This document shows, piece by piece, positions 4,548-41,122 of a stretch of 43,534 bases of DNA. Positions within the stretch are counted from its first letter, which is position 1. Each line of letters starts with the position of its first letter. A model generated the notes under the pieces. The model did no database searches and was not told the DNA's origin. It saw only the letters and a program-made list of their open reading frames with translations. This DNA comes from a virus: positions 1-43,534 of IMG/VR virus record IMGVR_UViG_3300002223_000003. The stretch is one strand, 5' to 3'. The translations under genes were made by a program, and so were the position numbers.

Positions 4548-5576
4548 ATGAATCCTAGTGATTTTACAAGATTAGCAAATAACTTCTACATATCCAAAGG
4601 AATGGAGTCCAATATTGAACGTATCAGTATAGACGCTGATTTTGTAAATTATTATGTTGAAAATCAAAAAGGTTTTCCTAGTTCTAAGGTGGCTTTAGTG
4701 TTTATTTGCCTTAATCCTTTATATTGGCAGTATGCTCCTGAAATGGTGGCTGGAGCCAAAAGATTTTTTCTTCCCGGTCATGAAACTGATTTTTTCTTTT
4801 GGACAGATATACCGACAGAGGGAGTAAAAGATAAAATAACACAGGCCTGGAAAGAACGAGGAAAGGATGTGGAAAATCCTGATGTTATAAAAACTATAAA
4901 CGATATAAGTAGCGCAATTATAGATTTACGAAATAAAAAAGATATAACTCTATTCCCCACCGAAGCGGTTGATTGGCCTTACCCTACTTTATTACGCTAT
5001 AATCTTTTTTTACAGCAAGAGGAAAAACTAAAAGAATACGACTATATTTTTTATTGTGATGTAGATATGAAGTTTGTAAATGTGGTAGGGGATGAAATTT
5101 TACCCAAAGAGGGGATTATGGCCGCCCAGCACCCAATGTATGCTCTCAAAAAAGAATATTGGCCACCCTATGAACCCAACGAGCTTTCAGCTTCATATAT
5201 CAAACGCCCCGGCAAATTGATAGAAGAAAATGGCAAGCCTAGATTTATGCCTCTTTACTTCGCTGGAGGATTTCAAGGAGGTAAATCAGATAAATACCTA
5301 GAAGCTATGAAAACTACCAAAAAGATTATTGAAATTGATTTAACTCAATCATATATTCCTATTTGGAACGATGAATCTGCCTGGAATAAGTATTTATCAG
5401 AAAATTCGCCAGATGTAATTCTTACACCTTCCTATGTTTACCCTGATAGTTTAATAGAGCAATTTTATATTCCACTGTGGGGCTGTAATTACCAACCAAA
5501 ACTTATGACATTAACAAAATGGTTTTCTACTTCTAAAGAGGGTGGGGAAGCCGTAGCCAAGATGCTTAAAAAATGA
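4548..5576 (+). CDS. Glycosyltransferase family 6 (ABO/alpha-1,3-galactosyl type), 342 aa
   Basis: GT6 enzymes transfer Gal or GalNAc in alpha-1,3 linkage from UDP-sugar, retaining configuration. Landmarks run in family order: an N-terminal beta strand (VALVFICLNP), FFLPGHETDFFFWTD near 72-87, the metal site DVD at 171-173, AQHPMY at 194-198, the acceptor loop YFAGGFQGG at 237-245, WNDESAWNKYL at 273-283 and TPSYVYP at 293-299. Bacterial GT6 members usually carry NxN instead of DxD; this one keeps DxD like the vertebrate and cyanophage members. There is no transmembrane anchor. It opens the sugar cassette, and AT-rich DNA just upstream has two TATAAT strings (4534, 4540). Confidence 0.85.
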   Translation: MNPSDFTRLANNFYISKGMESNIERISIDADFVNYYVENQKGFPSSKVALVFICLNPLYWQYAPEMVAGAKRFFLPGHETDFFFWTDIPTEGVKDKITQAWKERGKDVENPDVIKTINDISSAIIDLRNKKDITLFPTEAVDWPYPTLLRYNLFLQQEEKLKEYDYIFYCDVDMKFVNVVGDEILPKEGIMAAQHPMYALKKEYWPPYEPNELSASYIKRPGKLIEENGKPRFMPLYFAGGFQGGKSDKYLEAMKTTKKIIEIDLTQSYIPIWNDESAWNKYLSENSPDVILTPSYVYPDSLIEQFYIPLWGCNYQPKLMTLTKWFSTSKEGGEAVAKMLKK

Positions 5577-5607
5577 TTATAATTAGAAATAAGCGGGAAA
5601 AATTAAA

Positions 5608-6273
5608 ATGTTGACCATCAGCATAAGTTCATATAACCAGGCAGGATATTTACCAGATGCTATTGAAAGTGCGTTAACTCAGACTACGCCGTGCCAAGTT
5701 ATTGTGGTAGATGATGGGAGCACGGATAATTCTTTAAAAATTGCCCAAAGTTATGAACCTCAAATTAAAGTCGTTTCGCAAGTGAATAAAGGTCTTCCAT
5801 CTGCTCGCAATACTGGTATTATGTGGGCAACAGGAGATTTTGTGTTGCCACTTGATGCAGACGATATACTTTTACCTGATTGTGTTGAAAAGATTTTAGA
5901 AGTCATAAAACAAAATCCCAACGCTGATATAATTGCCCCCTCTTTCAAGTGTTTTGGTAAAGGAGAAGATACGATTATTTTAAAAGAAAATATCATTTTA
6001 AAAGATTTTGAGACAGGTAATTATTTACCATATTTTTGCGCTATCAAAAGGGAAAAACTTTTAGAGATAGGTGGATATAGTCCTAAAATGATATGGGGAT
6101 GGGAGGATTTGCATTTGTGGATAAACTTGTTGTCTAGGGGTGCGATAGTAAAAACTATACCTAAAGTTTTGGTTTTATACCGCACGAAAGAAAAATCAAT
6201 GTGGACCGACAGCAAAGACCATGCTGAAGAATTACAAGCTCAGATAAATAAAGATTTTCCAACTATTTTTTAA
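5608..6273 (+). CDS. Glycosyltransferase family 2 (221 aa)
   Basis: This is a GT-A fold sugar transferase. The nucleotide-binding DDGSTD lies at 35-40 and the metal-binding DADD at 83-86. The acceptor or base motif WGWEDLHLW in the last third corresponds to the ED region of GT2 enzymes. The protein is short, ending soon after the catalytic domain, so no membrane segment is present and it should act in the cytosol. It lies directly after GT6 and 6 bases before an HNH gene. Confidence 0.85.
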   Translation: MLTISISSYNQAGYLPDAIESALTQTTPCQVIVVDDGSTDNSLKIAQSYEPQIKVVSQVNKGLPSARNTGIMWATGDFVLPLDADDILLPDCVEKILEVIKQNPNADIIAPSFKCFGKGEDTIILKENIILKDFETGNYLPYFCAIKREKLLEIGGYSPKMIWGWEDLHLWINLLSRGAIVKTIPKVLVLYRTKEKSMWTDSKDHAEELQAQINKDFPTIF

Positions 6274-6279
6274 TACCAA

Positions 6280-6918
6280 ATGCCAAAAGGGATACCTAAA
6301 AATGGAATAAATAGAGGATGGTTTACCAATAGTCCTAGACCCTACAAGAAAACAGGTATTTTAAAAGTATGTAAGTGTGGTAAGGAATTCTATTGTGAAA
6401 AAAATGTGATTGAGAGAAAAAAATATTGTTCAACTGTGTGTTTTTATAATTATAAAAGCTATGGTTATATTCATAGCGAAGAAACAAACAAGAAAATAAG
6501 TTTAAGTAATAAAGGAAAAAAACTTTCAGAAGAAATTAGAAAAAAAATAAGTCTTGCCCGAATTGGCAAATCTTCTCCTAAAAAAGGTAAAGAATATCCT
6601 CACTTACAAGGAGAAAATAGTTCTAGGTGGATTGAGGATAGAAGTAGGATAAAGAAAAGTGATAAAAAACATTTAGATTGTGGTTACATATCTTGGATGT
6701 TGAAAGTCAAAAGGAGAGATAATTGGAAATGTAAAATAGAAAACTTAGACTGTAAAGGTCGTTTAGAAGCTCACCACATACTTCCATGGAGGGATTATCC
6801 TGAACTTAGGTATGAGGCTAACAATGGCATCACTTTGTGCCACTTCCATCATCCTCGCAAGAGAACTGAAGAAGAAAGATTATCTCCTTACTTTAGAGAA
6901 ATAATCAGTCAGAACTAA
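6280..6918 (+). CDS. HNH homing endonuclease with NUMOD3-like motifs (212 aa)
   Basis: N-terminal zinc-finger-like part (CKCGKEFYC...YCSTVC, about 33-61), then two NUMOD3-type DNA-binding repeats (HSEETNKKISLSNKGKKLSE and EIRKKISLARIGK), then a C-terminal HNH nuclease (EAHHILPWRD ... ITLCHFHH). NUMOD3 plus nuclease is typical of free-standing homing endonucleases of phages. It is wedged between two glycosyltransferases with 6-base and 2-base gaps, so it has inserted without breaking either gene. Transfer of this cassette by homing is an inference. Confidence 0.85.
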   Translation: MPKGIPKNGINRGWFTNSPRPYKKTGILKVCKCGKEFYCEKNVIERKKYCSTVCFYNYKSYGYIHSEETNKKISLSNKGKKLSEEIRKKISLARIGKSSPKKGKEYPHLQGENSSRWIEDRSRIKKSDKKHLDCGYISWMLKVKRRDNWKCKIENLDCKGRLEAHHILPWRDYPELRYEANNGITLCHFHHPRKRTEEERLSPYFREIISQN

Positions 6919-6920
6919 TT

Positions 6921-7499
6921 TTGAAACCGATAAGAAATTATATGGGTGGGTTAGGTAATAGACTTTTTCAATATGCCTATTTATATTCGCAAGTCAGAGA
7001 AGGTAAACTACCTGATATATATTTACAAGACCATAAATACTTTGACAAGTATAAACAGGAGTTGGTAGATATTTTAAGTGTAGATATAATAAAAAGCGAT
7101 TATGTTTCTTTACATATTAGAAGGGGCGATTACAAAAATAATTCTTTCTATGTGGATTTAACACAGACAGATTATTACGATAGAGCGATAGCAGAATTTC
7201 CCAATGATAAATTTTTGGTATTTTGTGCCGATAGGCAAAGTGGGAGTGATGATACATTAGACCAAGAATGGGTAATGAATTGGTTAGAAGCGAAATATGG
7301 CGATAAAGTCAAGTTATTCAAGGGTTTTGACGACATAGAGGATTTTAATAATCAAGCGGGTTGTAAAGCCCACATTATAGCCAACTCCAGTTTTTCCTAT
7401 TGGTGTGCTTATGTTGGTGGAGGAAAGGTTATAGCACCAAAAGAATGGTTCGTCGCAGGTAAAGAAATGACATTACCAAATAATTTTATCCGAATATGA
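6921..7499 (+). CDS. GT11-type fucosyltransferase-like protein (192 aa)
   Basis: GT11 alpha-1,2-fucosyltransferase landmarks: GGLGNRLFQYA at 9-19, SLHIRRGDY at 63-71, IIANSSFSYWCAY near 152-164, and VIAPKEWF. These are the family's conserved motifs I to III. The protein is much shorter than the usual 280-300 aa because the segment between motif I and the RRGD motif is only about 45 residues. The TTG start is chosen because family members begin 6-8 residues before GGLGN. It overlaps the next start by 4 bases. Confidence 0.8.
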   Translation: MKPIRNYMGGLGNRLFQYAYLYSQVREGKLPDIYLQDHKYFDKYKQELVDILSVDIIKSDYVSLHIRRGDYKNNSFYVDLTQTDYYDRAIAEFPNDKFLVFCADRQSGSDDTLDQEWVMNWLEAKYGDKVKLFKGFDDIEDFNNQAGCKAHIIANSSFSYWCAYVGGGKVIAPKEWFVAGKEMTLPNNFIRI

Positions 7500-8521
7500 A
7501 AACTATTTTAGTAACGGGGGCTAATGGATTAGTCGGGGGAGAGGCAATGAGTTTTTTCTTAGAGAAAGGCTGGCAGACTATTGGCATAGATAATAACACA
7601 AGAGAGAAACTTTTTAGTGTGCAACAAGGTTGGAATGTGGGAGTAAGTGATATTGATATACGAGATGAAAGGTTGATAAATAACTTCTTTAAAGACCATA
7701 AATTTGATGCAATTATACACACCGCCGCTCAACCCTCTCACGATTACTCTAAAGACCATGCCCTAGAAGATTTTGATATAAATGCTCGTGGAACTTTAAT
7801 TTTACTAGAAGCAACCCGCAAGTATTGTCCTGAAGCTGTGTTTGTTCACATTTCAACCGATAAAGTTTATGGGGAGAATATGGTGCGAATTAATGATACA
7901 CTCTTCGACGAGGAACACAGGCCAGACTTTCTTTTGACAGAAAAAAAGACTCGTTATCATTGTGATTTACCATTTGATGAAGAATTGGGATTAGATTTTA
8001 CAGGTCAGCGTTCTCTTTTTGGTTGTTCTAAAACCGCCGCAGATATTTATGTTCAAGAATATGGAAACTACTTTGGCATGAAAACTGTCTGTTTTAGGTG
8101 TGGCTGTATTACTGGCAGAAATCACAAAGGGGCGGAATTACATGGTTTTATGTCTTACCTAGTGAAGTGTATTAAAGAGGGAATTACATATAAAATTTTT
8201 GGCTATAAAGGTAAACAAGTGAGAGACCAAATTCATGCTTACGATTTAATTTCGGCTTGTTGGGAGTTTATTCAAAATCCTAAAAGTGGAGCAGTTTATA
8301 ACATAGGAGGAGGTAAAGAAAGAAGCGTATCTATTTTAGAAGCTATTGATTTAATAGAACACGAAACTGGCAAGAAGGCAATAGTAAATTACATTGACGA
8401 AAACCGAAAAGGTGATAGAATATGGGATATACATAATATCTCTAAATTTATGAAAGATTACCCAAATTGGAAATATAAATATAGTTTAAAAGATATTATC
8501 TCTGATTTATGTCAATTTTAA
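7496..8521 (+). CDS. SDR nucleotide-sugar epimerase, CDP-paratose 2-epimerase-like (341 aa)
   Basis: It has the Rossmann NAD site GANGLVG at 8-14, HTAAQPSHDY near 75-84, the STDKVYGE region, FGCSKTAADIYVQEYG, FRCGCITG and FGYKGKQVRDQIHAYDL. The AAQPSHD and YKGKQVRDxIH segments are characteristic of the RfbE-like clade, which epimerises C2 of CDP-paratose to CDP-tyvelose. Phe stands where classical SDRs have Tyr of YxxxK; I believe this clade tolerates that, but this needs an alignment. It overlaps both neighbours, so it is translationally coupled in the sugar operon. Confidence 0.75.
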   Translation: MKTILVTGANGLVGGEAMSFFLEKGWQTIGIDNNTREKLFSVQQGWNVGVSDIDIRDERLINNFFKDHKFDAIIHTAAQPSHDYSKDHALEDFDINARGTLILLEATRKYCPEAVFVHISTDKVYGENMVRINDTLFDEEHRPDFLLTEKKTRYHCDLPFDEELGLDFTGQRSLFGCSKTAADIYVQEYGNYFGMKTVCFRCGCITGRNHKGAELHGFMSYLVKCIKEGITYKIFGYKGKQVRDQIHAYDLISACWEFIQNPKSGAVYNIGGGKERSVSILEAIDLIEHETGKKAIVNYIDENRKGDRIWDIHNISKFMKDYPNWKYKYSLKDIISDLCQF

Positions 8522-9192
8522 TTACTGGAAATTTCGGCAATATAGGAAGTAGACTTGCTAAATTTTTTGATGGTTACATTGGTATAGACACAAAAGATGG
8601 AAAAGACCTTTTAACTTGTGAACTTCCTAATGATGTAGATGTAATTTATCATTTAGCGGCTCATGCTCCGGTGGAAAACTCTTGGAAAGACCCTGTGAGG
8701 ACAATAGAAAATCTAGCTACCACTATCCGGCTTGTGCATAAATATCCCAATGCTAAGATAATTTTTGCTTCCACTGGTGCTTCAATAGACCCTGTGTCTC
8801 CTTATGGATTTTCTAAGTGGGCTTGTAACGAATACTTAAAAAGATTCCATAAAAATTCAGTGATACTTTATTTTCCTAACATTTTTGGTATTCCCAGAAG
8901 TGTAGTTGATATTTTTAAAGGAAAAGATGAAGTAGTAATTTACGGAGATGGTCTTCAGATAAGAGACTATGTTCATGTGAATGACATAGTTTCTGCACTT
9001 TGCAAAGCCCAAAAATGGCAAGCAGGAGAGTATTTTTGTGGCAGTGGAATAAAAACCAATCTATTTCAATTAACTAAAGGGAAAAAAGTAATTTTTAAGG
9101 AATCTCGGAAAGAGCAACGAGAATCAGTGCTTCCAAATACCACTCCAAATTGGGAACCAATTATTAATGTAATGGATTATATTAATGAGTAA
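8509..9192 (+). CDS. Short SDR NAD-dependent epimerase/reductase (227 aa)
   Basis: Dinucleotide site GNFGNIG at 7-13, HLAAHAPVE at 48-56, catalytic YGFSK (Tyr99, Lys103), and the substrate-side motif RDYVHVNDI. About 80-100 residues shorter than UDP-glucose 4-epimerase, mainly in the substrate domain. A C4 epimerase or C4 ketoreductase of a deoxysugar are both possible; the sequence alone does not decide. It overlaps the previous gene by 13 bases and the next by 8. Confidence 0.7.
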   Translation: MSILITGNFGNIGSRLAKFFDGYIGIDTKDGKDLLTCELPNDVDVIYHLAAHAPVENSWKDPVRTIENLATTIRLVHKYPNAKIIFASTGASIDPVSPYGFSKWACNEYLKRFHKNSVILYFPNIFGIPRSVVDIFKGKDEVVIYGDGLQIRDYVHVNDIVSALCKAQKWQAGEYFCGSGIKTNLFQLTKGKKVIFKESRKEQRESVLPNTTPNWEPIINVMDYINE

Positions 9193-9517
9193 AAAAGACT
9201 TACAAGTATATTGTTTTGACCTTGACGGAACTCTTTGTGAAATAAAAAAAGGGCCAAAAGGTTTAAAAGAGTATGGCAAGGCACTTCCCATGTGGGATAG
9301 AATTAAAAAAGTAAATCAACTCTACGATGAGGGACATTTAATCAAAATTGAAACAGCCAGAGGGCGCCAAACTGACCAGGAATGGGAGGAGTTTACCAAA
9401 AATCAATTAGCAGAGTGGGGATTAAAGTATCATGTTTTACGGGTCGGTGTAAAAATGCACGCTAATCTTTACATTGATGATAAAGGGATAAATGATAGAG
9501 ACTTCTTTAAAGATTAA
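9185..9517 (+). CDS. HAD-family phosphatase (110 aa)
   Basis: Small phosphatase of the haloacid dehalogenase fold with FDLDGTLC at 11-18 (nucleophile Asp12, acid/base Asp14), the Thr/Ser motif (ETARG) and C-terminal acidic motif LYIDDKGIND. The architecture, including the QLAEWGLKYH segment, matches short capsule-biosynthesis HAD enzymes. In this operon it probably dephosphorylates a sugar phosphate, but the substrate cannot be read from the sequence. It overlaps the cytidylyltransferase by 26 bases. Confidence 0.8.
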   Translation: MSKKDLQVYCFDLDGTLCEIKKGPKGLKEYGKALPMWDRIKKVNQLYDEGHLIKIETARGRQTDQEWEEFTKNQLAEWGLKYHVLRVGVKMHANLYIDDKGINDRDFFKD

Positions 9518-9911
9518 AGGTTATACCTGTGGAAGTTTTGACCTTCTTCATGCCGGGCATCTTTTGATGTTGAAAGAATGTAAAGCTCAGTGTGATTATT
9601 TGATTGTAGGACTGCATACTAATCCAACTATAGATAGACCCTTGAAGAATAAACCTGTGGAAACTGTGGAAGAAAGAATCATACGCCTGCAAGGTTGTAA
9701 GTATGTGGATAAAATTTTAACTTATGATACTGAGAAAGATTTAGTAAATCTCTTAAAAGAATTAAAACCTGATGTAAGATTTTTAGGAGAAGATTGGAAA
9801 GGCAAGCGTTTTACAGGAGATGAATTAGATATTAAAATAATATATAATAGTAGAGAACATGATTTTAGTAGTTCAAATCTAAGGGAACGAATACGCAATG
9901 CAAAAAAATAA
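9492..9911 (+). CDS. Cytidylyltransferase-like nucleotidyltransferase (139 aa)
   Basis: It carries the HxGH signature of the nucleotidylyltransferase superfamily (His20-Ala-Gly-His23, in GSFDLLHAGHL) and a C-terminal SSSNLRERI matching the ISTT-x-RI end of glycerol-3-phosphate and heptose cytidylyl/adenylyltransferases. Length is typical of TagD-like enzymes (about 130 aa). It would couple CTP (or ATP) to a phosphorylated substrate. It is not a homologue of RfbF glucose-1-phosphate cytidylyltransferase, so its place in a CDP-sugar route is uncertain. It overlaps both neighbours. Confidence 0.8.
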   Translation: MIETSLKIKGYTCGSFDLLHAGHLLMLKECKAQCDYLIVGLHTNPTIDRPLKNKPVETVEERIIRLQGCKYVDKILTYDTEKDLVNLLKELKPDVRFLGEDWKGKRFTGDELDIKIIYNSREHDFSSSNLRERIRNAKK

Positions 9912-10485
9912 CCCAAAAATTTCAATAGTTCTCCCGATTCATGATATGAAAAACGGTGCCTTCTTTTTATGGAGAACCATCAATTCTATCATGGAACAGA
10001 CCTTTAAAGATTACGAGATTATTATTACCAAAGAAGGCAAAATGGCGGAAAACACCAATGCTGGAATTAAGAAAGCGAAGGGTGAATTGATTAAAATACT
10101 ATATTTAGATGACTGGTTTGCTCACCCAAACGCACTTAAGGATATTGTGGAAAATTTTGATGATAGAATAAATTGGCTTATAACTGGATGTGATACAAAC
10201 CCTCATCCTGAATGGACAGATGATATTGAGACAGGAAATAATAAACTCGGTTCGCCTTCTTGTCTGACTATAAGAAACTGGAATAATATGCCTTTATTTG
10301 ATGAACGCATGAGTTGGTTGCTTGATTGTGATTTATATAAAAGACTCCATAATAGTTCGGGGAAGCCAAAAATTTTAGATGGTGTAAATGTGAATATGGG
10401 TATCGGAGACCATCAAATGACTCATATCTTAACAGACGAAGAAAAATTAACAGAACATAATTTGATGCAAGAAAAATATGCCTAA
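9898..10485 (+). CDS. Short glycosyltransferase family 2 protein (195 aa)
   Basis: Starts KISIVLPIHD, contains NTNAGIKKAKGELIKILYLDDW with the metal-binding DDW at 71-73, and MPLFDERMSWLLDCDLY in place of the GWEDxDL region. The DDGS motif of typical GT2 enzymes is replaced by IITKEGK, so the donor site may differ. Cytosolic, no membrane segment. Overlaps the flanking genes by 14 and 8 bases. Confidence 0.75.
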   Translation: MQKNNPKISIVLPIHDMKNGAFFLWRTINSIMEQTFKDYEIIITKEGKMAENTNAGIKKAKGELIKILYLDDWFAHPNALKDIVENFDDRINWLITGCDTNPHPEWTDDIETGNNKLGSPSCLTIRNWNNMPLFDERMSWLLDCDLYKRLHNSSGKPKILDGVNVNMGIGDHQMTHILTDEEKLTEHNLMQEKYA

Positions 10486-11506
10486 AAAGTGTTTAATAAC
10501 AGGGCTAGCGGGAAGTATAGGAATTCATGTTTTTGCTCATATTATGCACAACACTAACTGGGAAGTAGTGGGAATATGTAGTTTCCGTCATAAGGGGCTA
10601 GTGGATAGAATAGTGGAAATAACTGAAGACCATCCAGAATGGTTAAAGCGATTAAATATGATAACTCATGACCTTTCTGCTCCCATATCGTCCCTTACTA
10701 GAGAAAAAATCGGCAAGATAGATTACATAATAAACTTGGCTTCTCTTTCCGATGTAGAAGCAAGTATCCAACAACCAACAGAGTTTATTCAAAACAATGT
10801 GGCTCTGATGGTTAATATGCTGGAATATGCTAGAGAGGCAAAGCCAGAAGTATTTATTCAATTTTCAACTGATGAAGTTTATGGGCCAACCCAGAATAAA
10901 ACAGATGGCTATAAAGAATGGTCGCCACAAGTTCCCTCAAATCCCTATGCGGCTTCAAAAGCCTGCCAAGAGATGATTTCTGTTGCTTATTGGCGAACCT
11001 TTAATGTGCCAGTAGTCATTACTAATACGATGAATAACTTTGGAGAAATGCAACAGCCTTTTAAGTTTCCGGTGATGATACAAAAAGCCATAGAGGCAGG
11101 AGAAGAAATAACTATACATGGGAATGAAAATGGAGACATTGGTTCTCGTTCTTATATTCATTCAAGAAATGCGGCAGACGCTTTGTTATTCATTCTCAAA
11201 CAACCAGTCTATATGCACCAACCGGCGCAAGCAGACAAGCCCGATAGATATAATATAGTGGGAGATAAACAACTTGATAATTTAGAATTAGCTCAAATTA
11301 TTGCTCGTCTTATGGGCAAGGAATTAAAATATAAACTTGTCAACTTCCATAAAACCAGAATGGGGCATGACCCTCATTATGGGCTTGATGACTCAAAATT
11401 AAAAGAGATGGGCTGGAGGTCGCCAGTTTCATTTGAAGATAGTTTGAAGTCCACGATTGAGTGGCAACAGAACCACCCAAATTGGATTTCTAAAAATCAT
11501 ATATGA
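10478..11506 (+). CDS. Nucleotide-sugar 4,6-dehydratase-like SDR (342 aa)
   Basis: NAD site GLAGSIG at 9-15, STDEVYG at 130-136 with the Asp132-Glu133 pair that defines 4,6-dehydratases, YAASK (Tyr157, Lys161), and NNFGEMQQPFKF, the loop typical of RmlB/GDP-mannose dehydratase relatives. RSYIHSRNAADAL closes the nucleotide site. The expected product is an NDP-4-keto-6-deoxyhexose, the first committed intermediate of deoxysugars. It is followed by the DegT-fold enzyme with a 4-base overlap. The nucleotide (dTDP, CDP, GDP) is not decided. Confidence 0.8.
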   Translation: MPKKCLITGLAGSIGIHVFAHIMHNTNWEVVGICSFRHKGLVDRIVEITEDHPEWLKRLNMITHDLSAPISSLTREKIGKIDYIINLASLSDVEASIQQPTEFIQNNVALMVNMLEYAREAKPEVFIQFSTDEVYGPTQNKTDGYKEWSPQVPSNPYAASKACQEMISVAYWRTFNVPVVITNTMNNFGEMQQPFKFPVMIQKAIEAGEEITIHGNENGDIGSRSYIHSRNAADALLFILKQPVYMHQPAQADKPDRYNIVGDKQLDNLELAQIIARLMGKELKYKLVNFHKTRMGHDPHYGLDDSKLKEMGWRSPVSFEDSLKSTIEWQQNHPNWISKNHI

Positions 11507-12675
11507 AACGTGACCTTCGCTATGGAGGGACTCTGATAGATAGTCGTGAAATCAGAGCAATTATAAAATCAATTAACAAAAGCCGTAAAACAGGAAATTG
11601 GCAGACTGCTTCCGAAGCCCAAAAAATGGAACAGGAAGCCGCTAAATTCCTCGGTGTAAAATATGGAATACTTACTACTAGTGGTAGCTGTGCTGGGCTT
11701 TTGGCTCTTAGTGCTTTGGAGTTGCCTAAAGGTTCCGAAGTTATCATCTCGGCCGTTACTTTCCCTACTATATACAATATCATTCTTCAGTGTTCTCTCG
11801 TTCCTGTTGTGGTGGACGCAAAAGTAGGCACATATAACTTTGATGTAGATGAAGTAGAACAAGCAATTATTAAAAGCAAAGGCAAAGTAAAAGCCGTGAT
11901 AGCTGTTCATGCAGTGGGCAATCCTTGCGATATGCCAAGACTAATGAAAGTGGCTAGGAAATATAATGTCAAAGTCATCGAAGATAACTGTGATGGTTGG
12001 GGTTCTACTATACAAGGCAAAAAGGTGGGTTCTTTTGGTGATGTATCAATTACTTCGTTTCATGCAGCACATATTGTTAGCATGGGAGTCGGTGGAGGAA
12101 TCTACACTAATGATAAAGAAATTGCAGGACGAGTTAGACAATACCGAGATTGGGGGCGACAAGCAAATACAATAGAACCCCATAAAGTAAAAGAACTTCC
12201 GAAAGATTACAACCCTCGTTTTGTCTACGACAAAATAGGCTACAACTTCCAAATCCTAGAACTTCAAGCGGCTATGGGGAGGGTGCAGTTAAGAAAAACC
12301 AATAAGATAAAAAAATTAAGGAAAAAGAACTTTGACTATTTATATAATGGTTTAATGTGGTTAGAAGATTTATTAATGCCTGATTGGTTGCCGGATACCG
12401 ATGTATGCTGGTTTTCTTTTCCAATTACCTGTTATGGAGATAGAGGTAAACTTGTAGATTATCTTGAAAAACACGGCACAGAAACTCGCAGTATGTTTGC
12501 TGGCAATATAACACTTCATCCTGCTTACCGTCATTCAAAGTTTAGGATAAGCGGAAAACTTACCGAAGCTAATTACATACTAAAACATTCATTTTGGATA
12601 TCCACACACCCACGCCTAAAGAAAAGTGATTTGGATTATATTATAAAAGTTTTTAAGGATTATTACAAATGCTAG
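11503..12675 (+). CDS. DegT/DnrJ/EryC1-fold PLP/PMP enzyme with His in place of Lys; 3-dehydratase-like (390 aa)
   Basis: The fold is that of sugar aminotransferases: TTSGSCAGLLAL, AVTFPT, EDNCDGWGS at 160-168, and QAAMG near the end of the central part. The usual SFxxxK lysine is replaced by His190 in SFHAAH at 185-190, followed by MGVGGG. The same swap defines the dehydratases RfbH/DdhC (E1) and ColD. RDWGR, LPKDYNPRFVYDKIGYN and the region after it track RfbH, but the cysteine-rich insert that binds [2Fe-2S] in RfbH is absent. It probably removes the C3 hydroxyl of an NDP-4-keto-6-deoxyhexose using PMP (inference). Confidence 0.8.
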   Translation: MKRDLRYGGTLIDSREIRAIIKSINKSRKTGNWQTASEAQKMEQEAAKFLGVKYGILTTSGSCAGLLALSALELPKGSEVIISAVTFPTIYNIILQCSLVPVVVDAKVGTYNFDVDEVEQAIIKSKGKVKAVIAVHAVGNPCDMPRLMKVARKYNVKVIEDNCDGWGSTIQGKKVGSFGDVSITSFHAAHIVSMGVGGGIYTNDKEIAGRVRQYRDWGRQANTIEPHKVKELPKDYNPRFVYDKIGYNFQILELQAAMGRVQLRKTNKIKKLRKKNFDYLYNGLMWLEDLLMPDWLPDTDVCWFSFPITCYGDRGKLVDYLEKHGTETRSMFAGNITLHPAYRHSKFRISGKLTEANYILKHSFWISTHPRLKKSDLDYIIKVFKDYYKC

Positions 12676-13301
12676 AATTACCGCAAGTTACGCTCATTGC
12701 ACTTGGGACAAAAAATGTAGAAGGCATGTATAACGCTCTTCAACAAAGTCAAAAAGGTATAAAATGGGGAGCAGTTAAACTTATTACCGAGATACAATGC
12801 AATACCATAGACGAATGGAATCACGCTATTGTGTTTGAATTACGACATTTCGTAGATACACAGTTTTGTATGTTAGTGCATCCTGATGGTTTTGTGGTTA
12901 ATCCTGAAAGTTGGGAGCCGGAATTTTTGAATTATGATTATATTGGCGCGCCGTGGCCACTACCAAGTGATGATTATTCTTACCAGACACCTGACGGTGA
13001 AATAGTTAGAGTTGGAAATAGTGTAAGTATAAGGAGTAAAGATTTACTAGAATTACCTTACGCCTTAGAAGTAGTATGGCGACCTTACTACGGAAATACA
13101 AACGAAGATGGATTTTTAACTTGCCATAACCGCAGACTTTTTCAACATTTTGGGGCTAGATACGCGCCGATTGAAGTAGCCAAATGGTTTGGCAGAGAAT
13201 TAGATATACCAGAGAATGTAGATGTGGAAAGTCCTTTCGCTTTTCACTTGCATGATACAATGCCAGGTCGCAATGAGAAATATAGAAGTTTAATGATATG
13301 A
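12669..13301 (+). CDS. DUF5672-like putative glycosyltransferase (210 aa)
   Basis: VTLIALGTKN at the N-terminus, VKLITEIQCNTIDEWN, LRHFVDTQFCMLVHPDGFV (57-77), and FLNYDYIGAPWP, then a VGNSVSIRSKDLLELP acceptor-type motif. This order matches DUF5672, a family of uncharacterised proteins in surface-polysaccharide loci that look like GT-A transferases. HPDGFV takes the place of the DxD. It overlaps the flanking genes by 7 and 4 bases. Confidence 0.7.
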   Translation: MLELPQVTLIALGTKNVEGMYNALQQSQKGIKWGAVKLITEIQCNTIDEWNHAIVFELRHFVDTQFCMLVHPDGFVVNPESWEPEFLNYDYIGAPWPLPSDDYSYQTPDGEIVRVGNSVSIRSKDLLELPYALEVVWRPYYGNTNEDGFLTCHNRRLFQHFGARYAPIEVAKWFGRELDIPENVDVESPFAFHLHDTMPGRNEKYRSLMI

Positions 13302-14041
13302 TTTGTGGTATTTTTCACGAAGGAAGTGGATTAGGCAATCAGTTGCACCGTTATGTAGCGACTAGAGTTTTGGCCTTGGATAAAGGAGTAGGATACAGCA
13401 TGAAAAACTTCTCTTTATTTAAAGGAGAACATTTTATAAAAAATGTAAGGTCTATTGCTTGGAGCGAAGGAGAAAAATGGCCGACAAAAGAATGGCTGGA
13501 AAAAAAAGTGGTAGAAAACGGTGTAGACATACGAAGCTATGACCCAGAATTTAATTTTATAGAAGACGGAACTGTCATCGATGGTGAATTTCAGGACGAA
13601 CGCTACTTTGGACACCGAATGAAAGAAATAGACGAATGGTTAAAAGTAGAACCTTTAAATATACCTGATGATGTTTGTGTAATAGGATTTAGAGGGGGAG
13701 AATTTAGTGTATTTCCTGATTTATTTCTCACTAAAGAATATTGGGAAGAAGCGAAAGTTTTAATGTTGCGGAAGAATATAAATATGAAGTTTGAGGTTCA
13801 TACTGATGATGAAATTCTAGCAAAACAGTTCTTTCCTGATTATAAAATAATCCACGATATAGGTATAAACTGGCGAAGTATTCGTTTTGCTAAATACGCT
13901 ATTATCGCCAATTCTTCTTTTTATATTTTACCTAGATTATTGAATAGCGGATACACAATTGCCCCACATTTTTGGGCTAGAAGAAATACTGGCATATGGT
14001 GTCTTCCACAAAATTATTATAAGCAATTTACTTATATATGA
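13298..14041 (+). CDS. GT11-like (fucosyltransferase-type) protein, divergent (247 aa)
   Basis: It shares the GT11 skeleton of the gene at 6921: GSGLGNQLHRYVATRV near the start, IGFRGGEF in place of HIRRGDY, AIIANSSFYILPRLL and TIAPHFWA at the end. The Arg-Gly pair of the donor site is kept, but the flanking residues differ, so donor or acceptor may differ from fucose. Not a close copy of the first GT11. Starts in an ATGA overlap with the preceding gene. Confidence 0.65.
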   Translation: MICGIFHEGSGLGNQLHRYVATRVLALDKGVGYSMKNFSLFKGEHFIKNVRSIAWSEGEKWPTKEWLEKKVVENGVDIRSYDPEFNFIEDGTVIDGEFQDERYFGHRMKEIDEWLKVEPLNIPDDVCVIGFRGGEFSVFPDLFLTKEYWEEAKVLMLRKNINMKFEVHTDDEILAKQFFPDYKIIHDIGINWRSIRFAKYAIIANSSFYILPRLLNSGYTIAPHFWARRNTGIWCLPQNYYKQFTYI

Positions 14042-14241
14042 GATGTAAATTATGTAAAATGTTGGAAGATGAAGAATTGATTGTGCACAAGTATGAAACT
14101 CATGGGATTCGACTAAAAGACTCAATGGGGGATGATTACTATTCTGAAGAGAAAATAAAAGAGTTAATCAACAAACATCGGAGAACAGGACAAGCTAGTG
14201 TAGAGAAGAAGTTTGGCAAGAAACCTAGTAGAATTATATAA
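14038..14241 (+). CDS. Small zinc-finger-like protein (67 aa)
   Basis: CKLC near the N-terminus followed by HKYETHG gives a CxxC...H...H arrangement that resembles a single zinc finger. The rest is charged, ending with a basic segment. It lies within the sugar operon (4-base overlap with the gene before). Probably regulatory, but unproven. Confidence 0.5.
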   Translation: MRCKLCKMLEDEELIVHKYETHGIRLKDSMGDDYYSEEKIKELINKHRRTGQASVEKKFGKKPSRII

Positions 14242-14289
14242 AATATATTTTAATAAGAAAATGGATACTTATGGTAGAAAATTAAAATA

Positions 14290-14895
14290 ATGCTCTTCGT
14301 ATTATCAAGATACAATCATGATATAAGCTGGGTAAAGGACTATACTGATGATGTGGTTCTTTATGATAGAAGCGAAGAGAAAATTTCTAACTCCATTCCC
14401 ACACCGAATATAGGAAGTGATTTGTATGATAAATTCACCTACATAATAGATAACTATGACAACCTGCCTGATGTTGCTTTATACAGCAAGGCGAACTTAT
14501 TTAAATACATTACCAAGGAAGAGTTTGACAAAGTAAAAGACAACACAACCTTTACGCCCTTACTAACGCAGAACCATAAAACATATTTACCAATATGCTG
14601 GTATGAAAATGGTCTTTACGCAGAAATTAACGATTATTGGTATCTTGGTTCACATCCAGCGAAACACACTAAGGAGATAATGGATATATTTAAAATGAAC
14701 GAAAGATATTATAATTTATTTGCTCCTGGCTCAAATTACATAATACCCAAAGAAAACATACTTAAACATCCAAAAGAATTCTATGAAAAATTAAGGTCGT
14801 TTTTAGAGTGGGATGTATATCCGGGAGACGCCCAAATTTTGGAACGCAATTTATTTTATTTATGGAACAATCCTCTATCCCCCCAGAAGAATTAG
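14290..14895 (+). CDS. DUF3431-like putative glycosyltransferase (201 aa)
   Basis: FVLSRYNHDISWV at the N-terminus, then YTDDVVLYDRS, a long TYIIDNYDNLPDVALYSKA segment (50-70), and FAPGSNYIIPKENILKHPKEFYEKL near 145-165. These match the pattern of DUF3431, found in capsule and cell-wall sugar loci. No biochemical role is known for most members. Its 3' end overlaps the FkbM gene by 34 bases. Confidence 0.6.
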   Translation: MLFVLSRYNHDISWVKDYTDDVVLYDRSEEKISNSIPTPNIGSDLYDKFTYIIDNYDNLPDVALYSKANLFKYITKEEFDKVKDNTTFTPLLTQNHKTYLPICWYENGLYAEINDYWYLGSHPAKHTKEIMDIFKMNERYYNLFAPGSNYIIPKENILKHPKEFYEKLRSFLEWDVYPGDAQILERNLFYLWNNPLSPQKN

Positions 14896-15392
14896 AGATA
14901 TTTAAATCCCTTAAAGATATTAAGGTTGTTTTTGATGTGGGGGCAAGAACAGACATAGACTACTTTAACATTCTTCCTGAGGCGACTTATCACTTGTTTG
15001 AGCCGAACCCCTTGTTCTTTGCGGACTTAAAAGCAAAGGTAGGCGACAGAAAAAATGTTTACCTAAATAATTATGGTTTGGGAGATAAATTTGAAGAGTT
15101 GCCTTATGACCCCACTACACAGTCATTTCTTTTACCTGTTACCAATCCTACACTTGCAATTAAAACATTAGACTGGTATATTCAAGAAAATAATATCAAG
15201 CGTATAGACTTTCTCAAGATAGATACTGAGGGATGGGATTACAAGGTTTTGCTGGGGGGGAAAGAAGCTATTAAAATATGTCGCTATATTCAATATGAAC
15301 ATTGGAATGATAGGTGGTGTTTTCACGAATTATTAAATAACGATTTCTGGATGAAGTATATAGGATATAGAAATGTTTTATGCCAAAGATAA
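14862..15392 (+). CDS. FkbM-family methyltransferase (176 aa)
   Basis: SAM-binding VVFDVGAR, the acidic LFEPNP, VYLNNYGLGDK and FLKIDTEGWDYKVLLGG are the FkbM signature (an O-methyltransferase fold used on sugars and polyketides). It may cap or decorate a glycan. A longer frame starts at 14808, but the ATG at 14862 is preferred: the extra 18 residues overlap the previous gene in another frame and add no domain. It overlaps the following GT17 gene by 13 bases. Confidence 0.8.
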   Translation: MEQSSIPPEELEIFKSLKDIKVVFDVGARTDIDYFNILPEATYHLFEPNPLFFADLKAKVGDRKNVYLNNYGLGDKFEELPYDPTTQSFLLPVTNPTLAIKTLDWYIQENNIKRIDFLKIDTEGWDYKVLLGGKEAIKICRYIQYEHWNDRWCFHELLNNDFWMKYIGYRNVLCQR

Positions 15393-16147
15393 TTGATGTT
15401 TGTATATACAACGGGGAGAAAGATTTATTTGAAATAAGATACAATATCTTAAAGGATTATGTTGATGAATTTATTGTGGTGGAGTTTGATAAGACATTTA
15501 GCGGGCAACCAAAACCGTGGCGATTTATAGAATATAACTTTAAGAATGTTTATTATCACGGGCTAGAAGAAAAAGACTATTTGAAATACAAAGAACTAGC
15601 CGAAAATTCTCCTAATACAAAGGGAGCAGAACATTGGAAACGAGAGTTTATGCAAAAGGAGAGTATAAAAGATTGCCTAACTCACTTGAAAGACGATGAT
15701 ATAGTTTTTATTGGGGACACAGACGAAATAGTTGAGCCGTTATTTTATACCACATCAATATACAAGATTATTAAATTCAAATTGAGGGTTTATACTTATT
15801 GGCTGAATAATCGCTCTAACGAAGTGTTCTGGGGAACAATTAAAGCGAGGTATGGAGATATTAAAGGTGAATGCTTGAATCACTTACGGAATAACGATGA
15901 AAGAAAAAATACCATTTTTGAGGCTGGTTGGCATTTTACCTCTCTTAAAGATGGACTTGCTAAAAAACTAACAGATAGTTATACTGAAGAAGATTATGCC
16001 CATCCTAGAGTGCTGAATGAGTTAAAAGAAAATATAGAGAATAATCGGGACTTTCTTGGTCGGGACTTTACATATAAAGTGGACGAAAGTCAATGGCCAG
16101 ATTATCTCAAAGAAAATAGGTCAAAATACTTGCATTTATTAAAATAA
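15380..16147 (+). CDS. Glycosyltransferase family 17-like protein (255 aa)
   Basis: GT17 enzymes include the bisecting-GlcNAc transferase of animals. Landmarks: YNGEKDLFEIRYNILKDYVD (10-29), IVVEFDKTFSGQPKP, REFMQKESIKDCL, the metal site GDTDEI in DDDIVFIGDTDEI, and AGWHFTSL. Bacterial and viral members with this order are frequent in surface-glycan loci. It is the last gene of the sugar cassette; 16 bases precede the GroES-like gene. The sugar is unknown. Confidence 0.8.
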   Translation: MPKIIDVCIYNGEKDLFEIRYNILKDYVDEFIVVEFDKTFSGQPKPWRFIEYNFKNVYYHGLEEKDYLKYKELAENSPNTKGAEHWKREFMQKESIKDCLTHLKDDDIVFIGDTDEIVEPLFYTTSIYKIIKFKLRVYTYWLNNRSNEVFWGTIKARYGDIKGECLNHLRNNDERKNTIFEAGWHFTSLKDGLAKKLTDSYTEEDYAHPRVLNELKENIENNRDFLGRDFTYKVDESQWPDYLKENRSKYLHLLK

Positions 16148-16163
16148 TATATATAATTAAATT

Positions 16164-16400
16164 ATGAAATGTTTTAAACTCTTACTAAAAGAAATTCCCC
16201 AAGAAAATGCTTGGGGCTATCAAGATAAAGATGCTATCAAGCTCGGTAAAATAGCATTCCCCTTCAAAGGAAAGACAGACGATTATGACTTTGACTTAAA
16301 GAAGGGCGATGAAGTTTATTTTCAATATGGAACAAATGTTAAACTAGACGGGGAGGACTATATATTAGTATCTTTAACAAGCCTAGTATGTCAAAAATAA
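16164..16400 (+). CDS. groES: GroES-like co-chaperonin (78 aa)
   Basis: The alignment to GroES is recognisable: MKCFKLLLKEIP at the start, LGKIAFPF, then DLKKGDEVYFQYGTNVKLDG and EDYILVSLTSLV, which corresponds to the conserved VKVGDRVLF..G.EVKLDGEEYLIVRESDIL end. The mobile loop with IVL that contacts GroEL is replaced by a short different segment (ENAWGYQDKDAI), so the product is about 20 residues shorter than bacterial GroES. It directly precedes GroEL with a 13-base overlap, as in groESL operons. Confidence 0.7.
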   Translation: MKCFKLLLKEIPQENAWGYQDKDAIKLGKIAFPFKGKTDDYDFDLKKGDEVYFQYGTNVKLDGEDYILVSLTSLVCQK

Positions 16401-17950
16401 TATCATTTTCAAAACAAAAACAAATAGATGGAATAAACAAGGTGGTGGATTTAATGAAAATTACTATTGGTCCAAGAGGTAAAAATGTGTCTCTAACCAA
16501 TGGGAATACAGTCAATGATGGTAGACGAATAGCTGAAGACATAATACTTAAAGACCCAACAGAAAACAAAGGGGCAGAAAGGGTAAAACGATTAGTGCGT
16601 AAAGTATCCAGTGATGTGGGTGGTGGGAGAACTGCAACAGCAATACTTTATCAGGAACTTATCAAAGTAGGTATGGATTTACTTAATCGGGGCTTTAATT
16701 TTAATGAACTTAAAAAAGGTATGCAGTTAGCGGTCAAAGATATACACGAACAATTAGATAAAATGTCTATACTGGTTAAAGGCAAACTCAAAGAAATAGC
16801 TACTATCTCAACCGAAAGTGAAAAACTAGGTAAAGTTATTGCTGAAGTAATGGAAAAGATAGGTAGGGATGGCATAGCCACAGTTGAGGAATCTAATTCA
16901 TTTGATATTACAAGTGAAATAACCGAGGGATTGAAGTTTGATAAGGGATTTATCTCGCCCTATATGATAACCAATAACCGGCAAGAGGCGGAATACAAAG
17001 ATATACCTGTTTTAATTACAGATAAAAAACTATCTTTTTTTAGAGATTTGCAACCAATTTATGATTCACTAATTAAGGAATCTGAACTTAAAAAGAGTAA
17101 AAAAGATTTGATGATTATTGCTGAAGATTTAGAAGGAGAAGCGTTGAGTGTATGTGTGTTTGCTAAACTAAAGGGACAATTCAACACCCTAGCTATTAAA
17201 ACACCCGGTATTGGAGATAACAAGAAGTTCTGCCTTGAGGACTTATGCGCACTTACAGGGGCAGAATTGTGGACTGAATACTTACAAGAACCAAAACTCG
17301 GCAAGATTAAAAAAGTGGTATCAACAAAGGATTCAACTATTATTCTAGGTGGAGATGTAAAAACTTGGATAACTACATTACGAGTCAGAGAAGAAATGAC
17401 TCCAAATAAATGGGAAAAAGACCAATTCCAAGAAAGAATAGCTAAATTACAGAATGGTATAGCGGTAATTAAAGTGGGTGCGTCTAGTGAAGATGAAGTA
17501 AAATACTTAAAATTAAAGATAGAAGATGGTGTAAATGAAACCAAGAGAGCTTTAGAAAGTGGTATTGTAATGGGGGGGAATACAGCGTTTATTCACGCTT
17601 CAAAAAATATAATTGATTGGTCAAAACAAATACAACCCATCCAAACACATTCACAAGACGAAAAATTGGGCTATAATATAGTATTTGGAGCAATTGAGGC
17701 GCCACTAAGACAAATTGTGGAAAATTCTAGGGGTAAGCCAGATATAGTGATTGATAAAATAAGAAAGTCTAAAGATTTGACAACAGGATACAATTCATTA
17801 GATAATACAGTGGTAGATGATATGTATAAATTAGGTATTATAGATGCAACTAAAGTAGTTAAAACTGTGCTAGAATATGCGGTAAATGAAGCTATATTAT
17901 TTCTAAGTATCGGAGGTGATGTCTCCGAAGAATTAGAAGAAAATGATTAG
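16388..17950 (+). CDS. groEL: Divergent GroEL-type chaperonin (520 aa)
   Basis: Clear group I chaperonin along its length: TIGPRGKNV at 26-34, NDG (Asp44, equivalent to Asp52), EGLKFDKGFISPYM at 180-193, and IEDGVNETKRALESGIVMGGNTAF at 378-401 with Asp380 in the Asp398 position. The ATP-binding GDGTTT reads GGGRTAT at 78-84, so the Asp87 that binds Mg is missing. The C-terminal GGM tail is also absent. GroEL is present in some phages (Pseudomonas phage EL). It is likely to fold virion proteins. Whether it still hydrolyses ATP is open. Confidence 0.9.
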   Translation: MSKIISFSKQKQIDGINKVVDLMKITIGPRGKNVSLTNGNTVNDGRRIAEDIILKDPTENKGAERVKRLVRKVSSDVGGGRTATAILYQELIKVGMDLLNRGFNFNELKKGMQLAVKDIHEQLDKMSILVKGKLKEIATISTESEKLGKVIAEVMEKIGRDGIATVEESNSFDITSEITEGLKFDKGFISPYMITNNRQEAEYKDIPVLITDKKLSFFRDLQPIYDSLIKESELKKSKKDLMIIAEDLEGEALSVCVFAKLKGQFNTLAIKTPGIGDNKKFCLEDLCALTGAELWTEYLQEPKLGKIKKVVSTKDSTIILGGDVKTWITTLRVREEMTPNKWEKDQFQERIAKLQNGIAVIKVGASSEDEVKYLKLKIEDGVNETKRALESGIVMGGNTAFIHASKNIIDWSKQIQPIQTHSQDEKLGYNIVFGAIEAPLRQIVENSRGKPDIVIDKIRKSKDLTTGYNSLDNTVVDDMYKLGIIDATKVVKTVLEYAVNEAILFLSIGGDVSEELEEND

Positions 17951-39722: not shown

Positions 39723-39995
39723 TTATTTAGCTTTTAGCGACCACCACCAAGTTTTGTCAAAATTTTTAGTTTCATCGCAGTATTTATAAAACCAATATAA
39801 GTCAAAATTACTTTTTAAACCACTTTGTGCCATTTTCACAGCATAAAATCTTGCAGGTAATTCTTTAAATCCATTTTTTTTCCTAGAAGTGTTTAATTTA
39901 TCCACGAATTTTTTTACAATATCTGCTCGTTCACTAACAGGTGTATCGGACTTATTTTTTATTTTATAGTTTTCAATGATTTCCTTAATATCCAT
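39723..39995 (-). CDS. Unknown minus-strand protein (90 aa)
   Basis: Charged N-terminal helix, then RFYAVKMAQSGLKSNFDLYW and TWWWSLKAK at the end. The aromatic-rich C-terminus is distinctive. Overlaps the upstream HNH gene by 37 bases. No function assigned. Confidence 0.55.
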   Translation of the reverse strand: MDIKEIIENYKIKNKSDTPVSERADIVKKFVDKLNTSRKKNGFKELPARFYAVKMAQSGLKSNFDLYWFYKYCDETKNFDKTWWWSLKAK

Positions 39996-40315
39996 TTTAT
40001 TGATTGATTAAGTCCTAGATTATTCGCTTGGGCAACTTCGTGAACTTTGTGGTGGCATTTTTCACATAGAGCGACTATATGTCTTTTTCTTTTCTTTAAA
40101 CTCGGTTTGAAAATATCAACATAACTTGTATGGTGCATATTTAGATTTTTATTAGAAGAACAGATTTTGCATTTTTTGTATTCTTCAAATTTTCTTAAAT
40201 AAATTTTTGTGTCCGCCCAAATTTTAGATTTCAAAAACTCCAAATAATTTATTCCTTTTCTTCTTAATCTCTTATTTCTTGCTCCGAATTGATTTTTTAA
40301 TTGATTTACTTTCAT
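39959..40315 (-). CDS. HNH endonuclease (118 aa)
   Basis: Very basic start (KNQFGARNKRLRRKG), then CKICSSNKNLNMHHTSYVDI and CEKCHHKVHE, a CxxC zinc-type HNH. The ATG at 40315 (MKVNQLKN) is chosen; a longer frame begins at 40360 (MGERGSVS) without better support. First true gene downstream of the minus-strand promoter at 40592-40619. Confidence 0.75.
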   Translation of the reverse strand: MKVNQLKNQFGARNKRLRRKGINYLEFLKSKIWADTKIYLRKFEEYKKCKICSSNKNLNMHHTSYVDIFKPSLKKRKRHIVALCEKCHHKVHEVAQANNLGLNQSIKWILRKSLKTIK

Positions 40316-40480
40316 TGTATTATTGTTTTCTTTGGTGGAGACGCTCCCCCTTTCCCCCATAGCTTTTAAGAAAGCAAATGTTGAAAAGAAAAAGCGAATC
40401 CTCCTTGTTTTCTTTGGAGCCAGACGCCGTTAGGACTTACTTTAGACACGCTCTCCTAACTTCCCCCCTCGTGTAAATGC

Positions 40481-40509
40481 AAAAAACCGCCTCTCTTACG
40501 AGAAACGGC
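40481..40509 (-). terminator. Intrinsic terminator on the minus strand
   Basis: A 10-bp stem with G-T pairs (40500-40509 with 40486-40495) and a GTAA loop is followed by six Ts on the minus strand (40486-40481). It would end the transcript from the 40619 promoter or act as an attenuator for the HNH gene downstream. Confidence 0.7.
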
Positions 40510-40585
40510 TTAATGTTTGATGTTCAATCAAAAAACTATTTACGGCGACTTGCACATATTCAGTTTTTTGACTTTGATTGAACAT
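40496..40585 (-). CDS. Leaderless micro-ORF (29 aa) over a structured RNA
   Basis: The ATG at 40585 is 7 bases after the -10 box (same layout as three other leaderless starts). It ends with TAA inside the terminator loop. MFNQSQKTEYVQVAVNSFL then EHQTLSRFS. A 13-bp inverted repeat (40520-40532 with 40573-40585) means its first codons are paired in the RNA. Whether the peptide or the RNA matters is open. Confidence 0.4.
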   Translation of the reverse strand: MFNQSQKTEYVQVAVNSFLIEHQTLSRFS

Positions 40586-40591
40586 ACCAAG

Positions 40592-40619
40592 AGTATAGCA
40601 AATACAAGAATAGTGTCAA
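40592..40619 (-). promoter_or_regulatory. Strong minus-strand sigma-70 promoter
   Basis: Minus TTGACA (40619-40614), 16-base spacer ending in TGC, TATACT (40597-40592), then 6 bases to ATG at 40585. The best promoter match in the window. Its -35 overlaps a 12-bp palindrome (GTCAAGCTTGAC, 40615-40626). Confidence 0.75.
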
Positions 40620-40621
40620 GC

Positions 40622-40650
40622 TTGACTTCTGTGGAAAACTTTGCTACACT
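40622..40650 (+). promoter_or_regulatory. Plus-strand sigma-70 promoter of the divergent pair
   Basis: TTGACT (40622-40627), 17-base spacer, TACACT (40645-40650), then 6 bases to ATG at 40657. The -35 lies on the other arm of the GTCAAGCTTGAC palindrome. A DnaA-box variant TTTTCCACA (minus, 40630-40638) lies in the spacer. Confidence 0.75.
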
Positions 40651-40656
40651 CTAACT

Positions 40657-40743
40657 ATGAATAAAAGCTTTGACGCTATTATAAATATAAACCCCGCACT
40701 AATGTTCCGTCAAAGCTCATTGGTGTGGGATTTTTGCGTATAA
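40657..40743 (+). CDS. Leaderless micro-ORF (28 aa) upstream of yopX
   Basis: ATG at +1 by geometry, TAA 4 bases before the next start codon. MNKSFDAIINI then NPALMFRQSSLVW. The RNA below it can form a pseudoknot. A leader peptide that controls the YopX gene by coupling or attenuation is the simplest idea. Confidence 0.4.
   Translation: MNKSFDAIININPALMFRQSSLVWDFCV
40666..40735 (+). promoter_or_regulatory. Interleaved hairpins (H-type pseudoknot or attenuator) in the yopX leader
   Basis: Stem 1: AGCTTTGACG (40666-40675) with CGTCAAAGCT (40708-40717), 10 bp perfect. Stem 2: CCCGCACTAATG (40693-40704) with CATTGGTGTGGG (40718-40729), 12 pairs including G-T, followed by ATTTTT. The arms alternate (1-2-1'-2'), so they either make a pseudoknot or compete as antiterminator and terminator. 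Confidence 0.55.
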
Positions 40744-40747
40744 TTTT

Positions 40748-41122
40748 ATGAATAGAGAAATAAAATTTAGAGCGTGGGATAAAGAAAGAGAAAAAATGGA
40801 CTATGCTCCAGTTTATGTTAATCCTCCAAATCTTGATATAAATTCTATTTTTAGAGGTTCTACTCTTTTGTGGATGCAATATACAGGTTTAAAAGATGAA
40901 AATGAAAAAGATATTTTTGAAGGAGATATTTTTGATTGCATTTATAAATTTGATGGATGTAAAAAACATAAACTTATAGTTGTATGGAGTAAAAATACTG
41001 CAAGTTTTAGATTAAAAGATTATGGAGAATGTCATCAACCAAATGTAGTTAAAAGTATGGGAGATTTAGAACGATTAAAAATTATTGGCAACATTTATGA
41101 AGATAAAAATTTCAAATCATAA
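40748..41122 (+). CDS. yopX: YopX family protein (124 aa)
   Basis: NREIKFRAWDKEREKM at the N-terminus, MQYTGLKDENEKDIFEGDIF in the middle and LKIIGNIYED at the C-terminus match the YopX family, widespread in phages with no defined function. Preceded by a leaderless micro-ORF and structured leader. It overlaps the next gene by 26 bases. Confidence 0.85.
   Translation: MNREIKFRAWDKEREKMDYAPVYVNPPNLDINSIFRGSTLLWMQYTGLKDENEKDIFEGDIFDCIYKFDGCKKHKLIVVWSKNTASFRLKDYGECHQPNVVKSMGDLERLKIIGNIYEDKNFKS

Follow-up and report, generated by a model that had tools for sequence, protein, structure and literature searches.

A divergent promoter hub with two candidate leaderless attenuators in an uncultivated virus predicted to infect Patescibacteria

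Introduction

In the pyrBI attenuator of E. coli, a leader ORF runs through the terminator, and RNA polymerase does not terminate there when a ribosome follows it closely; this ORF is led by a Shine-Dalgarno (SD) motif, and the leader contains a UTP-sensing pause region. In phage P4 immunity, premature termination of a phage leader is governed by RNA pairing, and the CI RNA is a processed RNA that acts in trans. To our knowledge, ribosome-led attenuators in which the transcript starts at the leader ORF come only from a few amino acid operons. In the trpL attenuator of Sinorhizobium meliloti (rnTrpL/peTrpL), the ATG of a short, 14-aa leader ORF opens the transcript, and Trp codons in this ORF sense tryptophan (PMC7298713). 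Gene control in Patescibacteria, which are ultra-small bacteria, and in their viruses is little known, and we found no report of leaderless attenuators in either (in a literature search that lacked most subscription journals).

Here we describe a divergent promoter hub in IMG/VR record IMGVR_UViG_3300002223_000003, an uncultivated virus contig; the whole stretch analysed, 43,534 nt, is referred to as the window. Like the pyrBI leader, one of the two hub leaders has an ORF that runs through its terminator; the SD-led start and the UTP-sensing pause region of pyrBI both differ from the hub, and we know of no pyrBI counterpart to the helix that can form here between the 5′-end and the terminator loop. 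The resemblance to P4 lies in a phage leader whose premature termination would be under the control of RNA pairing. As in S. meliloti trpL (PMC7298713), the leader ORF is predicted to begin with the transcript, two structures are mutually exclusive in silico, and the terminated leader would be a small RNA; unlike in trpL, the type B ORF (see below) crosses the terminator, phage operons lie behind it, and there is no dominant regulatory codon. Gifsy-1 prophage IsrK is likewise a phage leader RNA with a terminator, short and read-through forms and an upstream ORF, but there, unlike in our model, the short RNA works in trans against its longer, read-through counterpart, and the sections of that report drawn on here describe no terminator-crossing ORF with its AUG at +1 (PMC4825925).

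The hub sequence has two traits of ribosome-dependent attenuators: an intrinsic terminator before the regulated gene and a leader ORF that overlaps the regulatory hairpins. We consider it probable, although far from certain, that the hub consists of two translation-linked transcription attenuators facing opposite ways, best read as a variant of ribosome-dependent attenuation, itself already known. This reading is firmer for the plus side than for the minus side.

Results

Two promoters share one palindrome

The initial annotation had placed back-to-back promoters on a 12-bp palindrome whose arms supply both −35 boxes, with each transcript opening at an ATG. These elements are present, as follows.

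40615..40626, no strand: 12-bp palindrome GTCAAGCTTGAC with parts of both −35 boxes; candidate operator
40614..40619, minus strand: −35 box TTGACA of the minus promoter
40592..40597, minus strand: TGn-extended −10 box TATACT of the minus promoter, exactly 6 nt before the ATG
40622..40627, plus strand: −35 box TTGACT of the plus promoter
40645..40650, plus strand: TGn-extended −10 box TACACT of the plus promoter, exactly 6 nt before the ATG
40630..40638, minus strand: DnaA-box-like TTTTCCACA, upstream of the minus −35 box and within the plus promoter spacer

Both promoters are of the extended −10 type, with spacers of 16 bp (TTGACA-16-TATACT, minus) and 17 bp (TTGACT-17-TACACT, plus), and the ATGs are at 40585 (minus) and 40657 (plus). 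The −35 boxes, sited on the palindrome arms, are separated by a gap of 2 bp; because they abut, simultaneous binding of two polymerases is probably impossible. The palindrome has no second copy in the window, even when 2 mismatches are allowed. When the hub DNA was sought in 39 related virus records, it was found whole only in G001, a 99.9% identical contig, and among the matches listed from named phages only the start of the YopX gene was covered. Divergent pairing on a shared palindrome was seen only in this virus and that contig, the other loci having been checked in part. At window position 38830 (minus), another promoter of the leaderless type, again with a DnaA-box-like element, drives a 47-aa hydrophobic ORF and has no attenuator fold.

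The hub promoters are of a recurring type, with a DnaA-box-like TTWTCCACA, a −35 box, a −10 box, exactly 6 nt, and an ATG. The TTWTCCACA element lies upstream of several leaderless-type promoters in related viruses, and similar boxes stand before such promoters in Patescibacteria genomes. A scan of viral contigs for TTATCCAC-TTGAC-TAnnnT-6 nt-ATG returned 106 stretches (36 for the version with 7 nt), and the 6-nt pattern gave at least 115 matches in a genome collection. Among those listed, most are from Patescibacteria lineages, the pattern often precedes long ORFs that open at that ATG, and several of these ORFs resemble, by eye, LexA-type repressors or DnaA. Because the 6-nt spacing between −10 box and ATG is typical of this promoter class, leaderless starts at 40585 and 40657 are likely, a view that draws on promoter spacing and class enrichment. 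Nearly all genes of the window are without an SD-like motif, with only isolated AGGA or GAAAG. Short leaderless-type ORFs (MKQINSKTILLSVLI.., MKNMQTKISFILSV..) at L376:2173, L379:5612, L396:6120, L482:4350, L432:2488 and L439:6892 recur in Moranbacteria and related genomes and may be leader peptides of host operons.

The terminase relatives retrieved are from uncultivated viruses, and named phages gave no close relative, only remote matches. One MAG, labelled Candidatus Staskawiczbacteria, encodes a terminase 55% identical to that of the window; the contig concerned (129,872 bp) also carries rpoA, ribosomal protein S4 and EF-G (Pfam) together with a run of phage-like genes including an integrase; this combination looks like a prophage. 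Among 380 sampled genomes of the host phylum, this apparent prophage was the one close and strong terminase match. Together with its promoter class and the lack of SD motifs, this one relative suggests that the window virus infects Patescibacteria. Elsewhere in the window, the two contig ends (1-180 and 43410-43534) share a ~60-bp repeat, and the contig may look closed only because of it. A GroEL-like chaperonin gene (by eye; 16388-17950) adjoins a long run of sugar-metabolism and glycosyltransferase-like genes (4548-16147).

The plus leader can form two mutually exclusive structures

The plus leader, assigned to type B below, comprises the following features.

40657..40743, plus strand: 28-codon putative leaderless micro-ORF that crosses the terminator, with its stop 4 nt before the YopX ATG
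40666..40675, plus strand: a, 5′ arm of the competing helix, AGCTTTGACG
40693..40704, plus strand: b, 5′ arm of the terminator
40708..40717, plus strand: a′, CGTCAAAGCT, within the terminator loop and directly abutting b′
40718..40735, plus strand: b′ (terminator 3′ arm, 40718-40729) and U-run (40731-40735)
40748..41122, plus strand: YopX family gene (PF09643), the first behind the leader; a Dam-type methylase gene (PF05869) is next

Strong inverted repeats had been claimed for both transcripts; the claim holds for the minus RNA, but the nested fold of the plus leader is only moderately stable (z=−2.9). The plus leader also has a non-nested pairing that the initial annotation did not contain, as it did not contain the DnaA-box-like element or the host link. 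This pairing joins 40666-40675 to 40708-40717 (p=0.002 when the 5′ part is shuffled, 0.028 when the loop is shuffled). In silico, the full a:a′ and full b:b′ helices are mutually exclusive, with energies of −13.6 kcal/mol for the a:a′ state and −21.7 kcal/mol for the b:b′ state. In prefix folding with a 14-nt polymerase footprint allowed, a:a′ alone is available up to the U-run, b′ having not yet emerged. Because a:a′ is available first although b:b′ is the more stable, the outcome should depend on which helix folds first and on where a ribosome stands, and not solely on stability.

The minus element folds strongly and ends short of its gene

The minus element, assigned to type A, has these features.

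40481..40585, minus strand: type A element, ~105-nt RNA with predicted AUG at +1, a 5′ hairpin and then a terminator
40520..40585, minus strand: 5′ hairpin AUGUUCAAUCAAA...UUGAUUGAACAU, with the start codon in the stem
40496..40585, minus strand: 29-codon putative leaderless micro-ORF with its stop codon in the terminator loop
40481..40511, minus strand: intrinsic terminator with U-run
39959..40360, minus strand: first gene behind the element, HNH-like by eye and without a Pfam match

Both micro-ORFs thus have the lengths and stop positions first described for them. Among 1580 windows scanned across the genome, none folds with a lower z-score than the minus RNA (−7.9; −7.2 against 200 shuffles). 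The second strongest fold of the genome scan (z about −7.2) lies at 936-1046 (plus), with hairpin arms AGCCCCGC and GCGGGGC. The minus element has no competing antiterminator helix and ends about 120 nt short of its gene, and for these reasons it may stand alone, as an RNA or a gene. We regard it as rather unlikely, but deserving of serious weight, that the element encodes a small RNA or a tiny peptide and ends at a terminator of its own, with the HNH block expressed by leak or from an undetected promoter and the plus side still being a leader. A 5′ hairpin followed by a terminator is the shape of a stable sRNA, and type A elements are separated by well over 100 nt from the genes behind them, which are small genes or a portal-like gene (portal-like by eye). 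Against this, no strong sigma-70-type promoter was found between 40360 and 40480, that is, from the element to the HNH-like gene, and the stop codon holds a nearly constant position relative to the U-run, ending 12-15 nt before the U-run end in 7/7 type A elements.

The same anatomies recur in other virus loci

Through the promoter pattern, the architecture of the hub leaders was found in 15 other virus loci, for a total of 17 elements of two types when the window pair is included. Type B (n=10) comprises the window plus leader, L177, L321, L292, L224, L207, L273, L219, L252 and L345; type A (n=7) comprises the window minus element, L172, L277, L198, L041, L272 and L501. When folded, the sequence after such promoters is mostly that of ordinary small genes, with a strongly structured minority. 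Because the elements were hand-picked after ranking by fold, and because type A includes some homologous members, the p-values err on the optimistic side.

In type B, the micro-ORF runs through the terminator and U-run and stops beside the ATG of the next gene. The U-run is crossed by 9/10 of these ORFs, and most stop within 12 nt of the next ATG or overlap it. The 5′-end pairs with the terminator loop in 8/9 interleaved leaders (p 0.002-0.008 each, shuffling the 5′ part); the ninth, L252, is not significant (p=0.25), and L345 is not interleaved. For these hand-picked leaders the combined Fisher p is about 4e-12. Among the eight that pair, a′ lies 0-1 nt from b′ in seven, and the complementarity includes the AUG itself in several cases. 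Mutually exclusive antiterminator and terminator structures form in silico in the plus leader and in 7/8 other interleaved type B leaders.

In type A, a 5′ hairpin at the AUG is followed by a terminator with the in-frame stop in its loop or 3′ arm. The scan with 7-nt spacing produced two strong structures, L501, with full type A anatomy, and L497, with an early stop. L336 and L497 have a similar structure yet contain early in-frame stops, while L181 and L252 fit imperfectly. Scanning 46 loci with the bare −10/ATG motif gave no clear additional member among the fold-ranked matches listed, and no such leader was seen by eye in the stretches before the YopX genes of G026, G020, G034 and G013. The same anatomy was seen in two phages of the window's terminase family (G026 and G028), with an imperfect fit in a third, G034. 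The Staskawiczbacteria prophage has a similar element (L532:14642, plus), a micro-ORF that has an AUG hairpin and crosses a terminator before an integrase; here the spacing from −10 to ATG is 5 nt and there is no DnaA-like box. In G007, two near-identical ~125-nt copies (L041 about 1713-1840 minus; L021 1-125), each with a promoter-like site and a terminator-like hairpin, run in the same direction, towards each contig end, and are possibly another small RNA.

Several type B leaders precede replication genes. The L207 leader lies before a replication protein O homologue followed by a helicase-like protein, that of L219 before a protein with an NrS-1 polymerase domain, and those of L177, L321 and L224 before replication-initiator-like proteins without a Pfam match; the L273 leader precedes an HNH-like protein. 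That leaders front early or replication operons in several phages would also fit terminated leader RNAs acting in trans as immunity or regulatory RNAs, like phage P4 CI RNA or prophage IsrK, as would the apparent prophage in the lineage and the complementarity of a and a′, which could pair between molecules too. We nevertheless judge this very unlikely, as the complementarity of the plus and minus hub RNAs, the only pair examined, does not exceed that of shuffled sequences (p=0.78). Neither the window nor 11 related loci matched an Rfam family at gathering score; BTnc231 scored 28.3 bits (cutoff 80.4).

The reading frame is kept open, but type B peptides are not conserved

Stop codons were counted over the stretch that begins at the ATG and extends through the U-run (type B) or up to the terminator (type A). 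Across the 17 hand-picked elements there is 1 stop in frame 0, with 26 in frame 1 and 47 in frame 2 (Poisson about 5e-15; sign test against frame 1 alone 4e-7). Adding L181, L336 and L497 changes the counts to 3, 33 and 50. In a frame-blind terminator search, 9/11 virus matches with a strong terminator had no frame-0 stop ahead of it. It is therefore highly improbable that these are ordinary promoters and terminators with chance ORFs: the phage is AT-rich and the structured loci L336 and L497 have no through-running ORF, as this explanation would have it, but it is contradicted by the frame bias and by a topology repeated across many loci.

Depletion of in-frame stops would also be expected if the micro-ORFs made functional peptides, with hairpins that just stabilise or end the mRNAs. 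Type A peptides are indeed more alike than shuffled ones (mean score 20.3 vs 17.0, sd 0.8), a likeness that fits this explanation as well as a stand-alone peptide gene on the minus side, but which may merely reflect homologous RNA. The likeness of type B peptides is not greater than that of shuffled peptides (p=0.085), and the ORFs traverse complementary arms and a U-run, which themselves constrain sequence; we thus think functional peptides quite unlikely. Regulatory-codon attenuation of the trpL type, sensing an amino acid, was considered and rejected: there is no codon bias and no dominant residue, and W makes up 0.9% of residues. The initial annotation had left open whether the switch acts by peptide or by RNA. 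Because the type B ORF is kept open while its peptide is not conserved, the act of translation is favoured over the peptide product.

Discussion

The promoters, ORFs, hairpins, alternative helix and recurrence are seen in the sequence; from them we infer transcript ends, read-through, an on-state and a signal along the following lines. Each hub promoter would produce an RNA that begins at an AUG, on which ribosomes of a non-Shine-Dalgarno lineage would load directly. On the plus side, a ribosome that initiates and trails RNA polymerase would cover b, the terminator would not form, and polymerase would enter the YopX-methyltransferase operon; the ribosome would finish 4 nt before the next ATG and could restart there. 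A ribosome held at the start would instead block a, leaving a′ free and favouring the terminator. With no ribosome, a:a′ would form first and the operon would be read. As the model predicts read-through in this last case too, the sign of the regulation is ambiguous. On the minus side, the AUG hairpin and the terminator could both form, so that the default would be a ~105-nt RNA stopping before the HNH block, whereas a ribosome that loads ahead of hairpin closure would get as far as the stop codon in the terminator loop, cover the terminator and allow read-through.

The original proposal of a compact two-way switch for the flanking HNH and methyltransferase blocks gains from the leaderless-type starts, the terminators before both operons and the presence of the anatomy in other virus loci; among the loci checked, its divergent pairing gained no such support as a general feature. 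The recurrence of the same design in about 15 other virus loci suggests a switch by which translating the first few dozen bases governs operon expression. Tentatively, and with somewhat more doubt than confidence, we propose that viruses of Patescibacteria share a previously undescribed class of leader, in which the RNA starts at the AUG of a micro-ORF, complementarity links its 5′-end to the loop of the terminator, and a race between leaderless initiation and RNA polymerase gates early or replication operons. If so, the leader would read the host's capacity for leaderless initiation.

The grammar itself (TTWTCCACA, −35, −10, 6 nt and AUG, followed by a through-running ORF and terminator) allows uncultured lineages to be tested by sequence for leaderless transcription, and may help to assign viral contigs to hosts. 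It also predicts testable translation-coupled switches, several of them ahead of phage replication genes.
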